From an uncultured Intrasporangium sp. (GTDB lineage: Bacteria; Actinomycetota; Actinomycetes; Actinomycetales; Dermatophilaceae): a DNA stretch of 7,271 nucleotides. The stretch spans positions 1 through 7,271 of the forward strand of contig CALMNV010000015.1 of the NCBI GenBank assembly GCA_937873285.1, written 5' to 3'. Under the pieces are notes generated by a model that worked only from the letters and a program-made list of their open reading frames with translations, was not told where the DNA came from and made no database searches. Position numbers and translations under genes: made by a program. This document shows positions 4,251-6,026 of this stretch, in pieces (position 1 is the first letter of the stretch; every line of letters begins with the position of its first letter).

Positions 4251-5057
4251 GTGTCTCAGACACCATCCCGGATCCGGACCATTTTGCCCGGCTCGAGCCG
4301 CGCTGCCCTGGGGGCCACCGTCGCCGGCGGGGTGCTGACCGGTCTCGCGTCGGCTCCCGAGCGGATGAGCCGGCTCTTCCGGAGCCGCTTCCCCATGGTG
4401 GCCGTGACCGGGATGACCGGCGTCGGCAAGAGCCAGCTCGTCGACCGGCTGACCCGGCGCACCTCCGACGACGGCGTGGCCGAGGTGGGCTCGGCGGTCA
4501 TGGAGCGCCGGACCCGACGCTCGCCCCGGCTGCAGGGCTTCCGCTTCCTCGTGGTGCCGGGCGACAACGCGGCGACGCGGCTCGGCGCCCTCGACGAGGT
4601 CTTCCATGACGAGCCGGTCGACGGGGTGATCCACGTCGTCGCCAACGGCTACGCCACACCCCGGCGCGCCGCAGGCACCACCGGCGCGGCGAGCGCCACC
4701 CGGGAGGAGCAGCTCGCCGCCGAGCTCGAGGACTGGACCATCACGTCACACCGCATCGCCTCGATGGCCGTCCGCCGCGACAAGCCGATCTGGCTGGTCG
4801 TCGCCGTGACGAAGACCGACCTCTACCCCGACGACGTGGACGCGGTCGTCGACTACTACTCGCCGGGCAGCGGCTCGCCGTTCGCCGCCAGGGTCGATGC
4901 GCTGCGAGCCTTGGCGGGCGGCGCGAAGCTCTCGATCGACGTGCTCCCGGTGTCCAGCCAGAGCGGTGACCGCAGGTCGGCGAGCTCGGCCAAGGGGGCC
5001 AGCGCCATGGTCGATGCCCTCGCGGCCCGGCTGGCCCAGCTGAGCGGTCACGTCTGA
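4251..5057 (+). CDS. P-loop GTPase-like protein, operon partner of the Arr fusion
   Basis: The 268-residue product has a clear Walker A/G1 motif, GMTGVGKS (54-61), with K60 and S61 for phosphate and magnesium binding. A TKTD motif (187-190, after the hydrophobic strand WLVVAV) stands where GTPases have NKxD, and VSSQSG (234-239) fits the G5 position. The G3 site is divergent: instead of DxxG the strand ends VVPGDN (101-106). It therefore looks like a TRAFAC-type GTPase domain with a weakened or altered hydrolysis switch. Before the domain, residues 18-33 (AALGATVAGGVLTGLA) form a small hydrophobic stretch that might touch the membrane but is too weak to call a transmembrane helix. GTG 4251 is preceded by AGGAGG at 4241-4246, 4 nt away. 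The Arr-fusion gene follows after 15 nt, so the two are probably co-expressed. Nothing in the sequence names its role; regulating or switching the partner is a hypothesis. Confidence 0.75.
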   Translation: MSQTPSRIRTILPGSSRAALGATVAGGVLTGLASAPERMSRLFRSRFPMVAVTGMTGVGKSQLVDRLTRRTSDDGVAEVGSAVMERRTRRSPRLQGFRFLVVPGDNAATRLGALDEVFHDEPVDGVIHVVANGYATPRRAAGTTGAASATREEQLAAELEDWTITSHRIASMAVRRDKPIWLVVAVTKTDLYPDDVDAVVDYYSPGSGSPFAARVDALRALAGGAKLSIDVLPVSSQSGDRRSASSAKGASAMVDALAARLAQLSGHV

Positions 5058-5072
5058 GCCAGGGACGAGAGA

Positions 5073-6026
5073 ATGCGGACACGCTCGGGTGACTTCGACC
5101 TGACGATGGACGAGCTGAGGGCCATCTGCGGGTATGCCGCGGCCTGCGCGGAGCCTGCCCTCGTGATCTACCGGAAGGCTCACCCCGACGACCCTCGCCC
5201 AGCGGCGGCGCTGCAGGCTGCCCGGGTCTTCGCCGAGGGAGCGCCCCGTTCGCGCCAACAGCGGACGGCTGCGGCCGACGCCCACCGCGCAGCGAGGGAG
5301 GCTGCCGACGAAGCTGCCCGGCACGCAGCAGACGCCGCCGGAGACGCGGCCTCGGCGGCATACCTGCACCCGTTGGCCAAGGTGACGCAGCTGCGACACA
5401 TCCTGGGGCCGGCCGCCCATGCCGCCCGGGCGGCCGAGCTCGCGAGGGGCGACGACCCGGTCGTCGCGGAGTACGTGGTCACTGCTGCCGCCAAGCGGGC
5501 CACGCCGGTCGTCCTCGACGTGCTGACCTGTTACCCGCGGGCGCCGCAGGGGCGCAGCCGGGTCGCGGCCCTCATGCAACGGCTCGACAGCCTGCTGCGG
5601 GACCCGCTGCCGCCCCCGCGGGTCGTCGAGGACCCAGGGCCGTTCTTCCACGGGACCAGGGCCGACCTGCGCCCGGGTGACCTGCTCACCCCAGGGTGGC
5701 GCTCGAACTACGGCTCGGGGCGTCAGGCCAAGCACATCTACCTGACGGCAACGCGCGAGGGCGCGCCACTGGCGGCCGAGCTCGCTCAGGGCGAGGGGCC
5801 GGGACGGGTCTACCGGGTCGAGCCCCTGGGCACCATCGAGGACGACCCGAACGTCACGGACAAGCGCTTCCCCGGCAACCCGACCCGCTCCTACCGAACC
5901 ACCGAGCCGCTACGGGTCGTCGAGGAGGTCACCGGCTGGTCGCGTCCTGCCCCGGAGATGGTTCGGCAGATGCGCGAACGCATGGTCGAGCTGGCGGAGC
6001 TCGGGATCGAGGCGATGGACGACTGA
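5073..6026 (+). CDS. Imm-5-like helical domain fused to rifampin ADP-ribosyltransferase (Arr) domain
   Basis: The 317-residue protein has two parts. Residues 8 to about 175 are Ala-rich and helical, with HPDDPRPAAALQAARVFAEG (37-56), the AAADAHRAAREAA block and the HILGPAAHAARAAELARGDDP region. I recognise this as the Imm-5-like 'putative immunity protein' family, of unsettled function. After a Pro-rich linker (179-184), residues 188-317 are a complete Arr domain. Arr transfers ADP-ribose from NAD to the C23 hydroxyl of rifamycins, inactivating them. H193 (FFHGT), Y223 (KHIYLTA) and D258 (IEDDPN) match the His19/Tyr49/Asp84 positions of Mycobacterium smegmatis Arr, with 30- and 65-residue spacings. 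KRFPGNPTRSYRT (264-276) is the family hallmark. Ordinary Arr proteins are about 140 residues with nothing in front. ATG 5073 has only a weak purine-rich site (GACGAGAGA) and lies 15 nt after the GTPase-like gene. Arr identity is very secure, the N-terminal family fairly secure, and the purpose of the fusion unknown. Confidence 0.92.
   Translation: MRTRSGDFDLTMDELRAICGYAAACAEPALVIYRKAHPDDPRPAAALQAARVFAEGAPRSRQQRTAAADAHRAAREAADEAARHAADAAGDAASAAYLHPLAKVTQLRHILGPAAHAARAAELARGDDPVVAEYVVTAAAKRATPVVLDVLTCYPRAPQGRSRVAALMQRLDSLLRDPLPPPRVVEDPGPFFHGTRADLRPGDLLTPGWRSNYGSGRQAKHIYLTATREGAPLAAELAQGEGPGRVYRVEPLGTIEDDPNVTDKRFPGNPTRSYRTTEPLRVVEEVTGWSRPAPEMVRQMRERMVELAELGIEAMDD

Follow-up and report, generated by a model that had tools for sequence, protein, structure and literature searches.

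In an uncultured Intrasporangium species, a single gene joins an Imm5_like domain, of a family annotated as putative immunity protein, to an Arr ADP-ribosyltransferase domain. The gene lies at positions 5073..6026 (plus strand; 317 amino acids plus stop) of the 7,271-nucleotide stretch analyzed here, contig CALMNV010000015.1, which we call the window. We found that the architecture recurs across genera, that key Arr residues are kept, that each half has a predicted fold, and that both halves are under purifying selection. The reading we put forward, at about an even chance, is that the Imm5_like domain docks on a rifamycin-inactivating Arr and modulates it. The Arr domain would inactivate rifamycin-type antibiotics by ADP-ribosylation, and the Imm5_like domain, predicted to dock on Arr, would bind a ligand or partner and thereby tune the enzyme.

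The open reading frame (ORF) starts with ATG, contains no internal stop and encodes one continuous chain of 317 residues. When the halves were scanned separately, each matched its own family, in agreement with the original prediction of an Arr domain joined to an Imm-5-like domain. Pfam Imm5_like (PF21805) matched residues 16-132 with 56.1 bits and Pfam Arr-ms (PF12120) residues 191-289 with 160 bits (cut-off 25 for both), and the NCBIfam equivalog rifampin_ARR (NF033144) scored 173.6 bits, above its cut-off of 130 bits. Because most of the listed stand-alone relatives are 170-190 amino acids long, the first unit was set at residues 1-178 (5073..5606), which form eight predicted helices. It is followed by a proline-rich linker, mostly coil in the model (residues 179-190; 5607..5642), and by the Arr domain (residues 191-317; 5643..6023), all on the plus strand.

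The residues highlighted in the original prediction, H193, Y223, D258 and the FPGNPTRSYRT block, were found where it had placed them. The NAD-binding residues H193 of the HGT motif (5649..5651) and Y223 (5739..5741), as well as the catalytic D258 (5844..5846), which aligns to Asp 84 of Arr-ms (PDB 2hw2), are kept in 43/43 rows of an alignment of fused sequences. Furthermore, the window protein contains VTDKRFPGN (5853..5879), aligned to rifampicin-binding site 1 as defined in a 2021 Arr survey (PMC8492726), and this loop is exact in 38 of the 43 rows. The predicted model of the Arr half matches solved Arr and has the Arr fold. Since the catalytic residues, most of the site-1 loop and the predicted fold are all kept, the Arr half is, judged from sequence and model, most likely a working rifamycin ADP-ribosyltransferase, and rifamycins are probably its substrate.

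The Arr half departs little from stand-alone Arr, with catalytic and site-1 residues largely unchanged. For this reason, of the two readings originally offered, rifamycin inactivation under the control of a ligand or partner fits better. The other, in which the first domain would act as sensor for an ADP-ribosyltransferase redirected to a target in the cell or in a phage, would be in line with the role apart from rifampin described for the stand-alone Arr of M. smegmatis (PMC3138739), but in addition to the unchanged residues, several searches speak against it, and we consider it very unlikely. PADLOC returned no family for the fusion, for a stand-alone Imm5_like relative (P0121) or for two other window genes. 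At 80% coverage, the fusion was absent from all 1740 matching plasmid records and from both matching phage records, and each neighbor family called by a crude gene finder occurs in at most 4 of 26 fused loci. In PHROG there were two weak matches, both to families of unknown function.

Both Pfam domains were present in every one of the 120 homologues listed out of 1414. With the source genome counted, the fusion was detected in 7/58 near genomes and, at E <= 1e-60, in 11/396 genomes of the order; these 11 belong to one family throughout and to 8 of 110 genera. A scan of named genomes, of which the best 80 loci (labeled with L-numbers) were kept, yielded at least 25 complete fusions and at least 53 loci with Arr but without the Imm5_like domain. 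Two further loci were excluded from the complete-fusion counts, L079, where the fusion is cut by the contig end, and L082, which begins inside the fusion. Named fused hosts include Pedococcus, Terrabacter, Terracoccus, Phycicoccus, Nostocoides, Knoellia, Intrasporangium, Ornithinimicrobium, Pengzhenrongella, Micropruina and Tessaracoccus, a patchy spread as for an accessory gene.

An assembly or annotation artefact could be suspected, because the window makes up one entire contig of a genome that is 58% complete at 1.84 Mb and because one of the 25 complete fused loci fetched, L063, has an internal stop (at residue 287; this locus was excluded from alignments, trees and rates). However, the other 24 are open, and the same junction is found in isolates, among them members of Pedococcus, Terrabacter, Intrasporangium, Knoellia, Micropruina and Tessaracoccus; L068 and L074 are complete chromosomes that show it. 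The fusion also occurs in metagenome bins. Since the same junction recurs across genomes of several genera, we rule out an assembly artefact, and the probability of any artefact is negligible. The fusion is thus neither restricted to a single strain nor an accidental join, and its recurrence bears out the suggestion that it is a real system.

To trace the origin, trees were built for each half. In the Arr tree (58 domains: 25 fused and 33 of 53 unfused, with 20 unfused loci omitted), a branch with support 97/98 splits off the fused forms and is recovered in 94% of 200 bootstrap trees. In the Imm5_like tree (61 domains: 20 of the 25 fused, with five omitted, and 41 stand-alone), the branch separating the fused forms has support 100/98. 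Because one well-supported branch isolates the fused forms in both trees, the simplest reading is that a stand-alone Imm5_like gene and an arr gene fused once and that the product then spread by descent and transfer. In 291 of 300 pairs, the other nine being too diverged, median omega was 0.21 (first half) and 0.24 (Arr), and purifying selection acts on both halves. That selection maintains a two-domain Arr in several actinobacterial families suggests that an extra domain assists or regulates the enzyme in one Arr lineage.

The two halves could also perform independent jobs, an Arr and a helical protein of unrelated role joined for shared expression only. Each half has many stand-alone relatives, and these show no excess co-occurrence, as this explanation would have it. 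On the other hand, no partner other than Arr was seen to recur widely: 19 of the 120 listed long main-type Imm5_like proteins (191 found) carry another Pfam domain, each such partner in at most two clusters. In addition, the first half shows constraint specific to fused forms. We regard independent jobs as unlikely, though the most serious of the alternatives.

The fused-only constraint concerns residues R125, V130, E133 and Y134 and was seen against a broader stand-alone comparison set. These residues lie in the segment 125-134 (5445..5474), a candidate Arr-docking patch. The YLHPLAKVTQ segment (residues 97-106; 5361..5390), in which H99, P100 and Q106 are invariant in the alignment, contains an 8-residue insertion that marks the fused subtype off from the main Imm5_like family. 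The first half is 44-60% identical to stand-alone Imm5_like proteins and has the same invariant residues.

The AlphaFold2 model of residues 1-180 has a mean predicted local distance difference test (pLDDT) score of 94.5. Foldseek alone gave no significant fold match for the first half; in a comparison restricted to families in the VIA lists, its closest likeness was PDB 7jtu chain B, presumably SsdAI, and this likeness was moderate, with an identity of 12% or less. Of the helical, immunity-family N-terminal part that had been proposed, the family match holds, while the predicted helical fold is immunity-protein-like only moderately.

What the first domain does was weighed from its conserved residues and its surroundings. 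Its invariant polar residues are common to stand-alone relatives, most of them from genomes without Arr, and no toxin partner was found among the neighbors called by a crude gene finder at fused loci or among the 25 of 76 neighbor families shown for stand-alone genes. Because of these two observations, a ligand- or partner-binding module fits better than a dedicated Arr antitoxin, and we tentatively suggest, with somewhat less than even confidence, that such a module rather than a dedicated inhibitor is attached to Arr. A bolder reading, which is rather unlikely, is that an ADP-ribosyltransferase that modifies antibiotics has permanently acquired an immunity-protein fold as its regulator and acts only when the added domain senses its ligand or partner; if true, a constitutive resistance enzyme would have become a gated one. 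By analogy with SsdAI on SsdA, the first domain could also cover the Arr cleft and keep the enzyme inactive until a ligand or partner displaces it; we consider this built-in guard quite improbable.

Several observations weigh against the reading put forward here. Around the fused genes, no neighbor family occurred in more than 4/26 loci, and there was no clue to a ligand; the gene finder was crude, recovering the fusion itself in 19 of the 26 loci, and neighbors will have been missed. Around 31 stand-alone loci, no recurrent neighbor family was found, the top one being MFS transporters in three (54 of 59 ORFs scanned, five omitted as likely shadows; 25 of 76 families shown). Furthermore, a search of 62 unfused arr loci (53 with flanks of up to 10 kb, nine with 1.5 kb) detected no Imm5_like gene, the same profile finding the gene in 9/9 control loci, and 87 unfused Imm5_like loci had no arr in their 1.5-kb flanks. 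Nor do stand-alone relatives track arr: Arr was present in 4/35 genomes with an unfused P0121 match (E <= 1e-15; a few weak matches may be main type) versus 80/394 overall. Among the 15 least diverged pairs, 12 show faster evolution in the first half than in Arr. An initial list of fused-only positions was drawn against a stand-alone set that was too narrow, and most of it was not upheld on recheck; in its first part, the contrast with Arr (8/80 versus 1/49) was not significant (Fisher p = 0.15). Finally, no rifamycin-associated element was found within 400 bases before any of the 26 fused genes, the best sites having 6-8 mismatches to what we take to be its 19-base motif. With the same presumed motif, only one of 38 unfused arr genes tested had a match, a site with one mismatch about 83 bases before the Mycolicibacterium arr match of L136.

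A two-gene precursor of the fusion was considered and rejected, since neither the 62 unfused arr loci nor the 87 unfused Imm5_like loci show the partner gene within the flanks given above. One genus, of which three genomes were examined for this, has arr in a back-to-back arrangement with a main-type Imm5_like gene, some 40 bases separating the two (L166, 6614-7598; L197, 3950-4924; L198, 3035-4009). These pairs hint at a second link between Arr and Imm5_like, separate from the fusion and involving another Imm5_like subtype; they may simply reflect shared descent (88-93% identity). A second hint of pairing comes from five genomes chosen for showing two hits (L199-L203, near the middle of each locus). 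There the fused-type subtype stands alone and immediately precedes a main-type Imm5_like gene of the same strand, with the matches 18-48 bases apart. As a lead, Arr in the fusion occupies the downstream place that the main-type gene holds in these tandems.

In the window, a P-loop-like gene (4251-5057) ends 16 bases before the fusion, and all its Pfam matches are below cut-off. It adjoins the fusion also in L059 and lies 3.3 kb upstream in L064 and L067; in L004, part of a relative follows the fusion at a distance of 1.3 kb. A conserved operon was rejected, as this family occurs in 4/26 loci and every other neighbor family in at most three. The window also contains a PemK/MazF-like gene (1168-1524; 56.6 bits). 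Elsewhere, cyanobacterial tandem Arr domains without a gap between the matches were observed (L104, 236-919; L105, 10001-10684; L107, 5938-6597). One genome with a fusion contains, about 2.6 kb downstream of it, an Arr fragment corresponding to residues 231-317 and 76% identical (G016:C9:60774-61031).

Databases name several of the fusions Arr, likely because the rifampin_ARR equivalog score is over the cut-off, and this automatic naming hides the second domain; one source uses "Rifampin ADP-ribosyl transferase/Imm-5 like putative immunity protein". A 199-amino-acid Imm5_like protein of Sanguibacter antarcticus (P0200) bears the UniRef name rifampin ADP-ribosylating transferase, yet only PF21805 is listed for it; the name has perhaps spilled over from fusions. 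Judged by titles and abstract openings, no treatment of the fusion was found in the literature, nor any paper on PF21805 or Imm-5-like. The 2021 survey encountered lengths of 36-679 amino acids and then filtered the sequences on how much of Arr-ms they covered and how identical to it they were; its main text uses neither the word fusion nor the term domain architecture (PMC8492726).

Compared with known systems, the predicted fold of the first half has a moderate likeness to what is presumably SsdAI; SsdAI, however, is a separate, toxin-paired protein that blocks the active site of the deaminase toxin SsdA. DUF416 proteins (2q9r, 3f7c) are likewise 12% or less identical to the first half. Stand-alone Imm5_like proteins (PF21805, mostly 170-190 amino acids) lack Arr, and no described function was found for them; the fusion offers a handle on the binding target of this widespread family. 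With Arr (Arr-ms, PDB 2hw2; Arr-2, PDB 9iba), the fusion shares the whole Arr domain, the catalytic residues, rifampicin site 1 and the predicted fold. Arr enzymes with verified function are small, at about 140-150 amino acids, and stand alone (PMC8492726), a size that is usual rather than defining, whereas the fusion has 317, with 178 extra N-terminal residues as a separate domain. Both parts were known before, and databases already display the architecture; if the reading put forward here holds, the fusion would be a known resistance enzyme in a new form.
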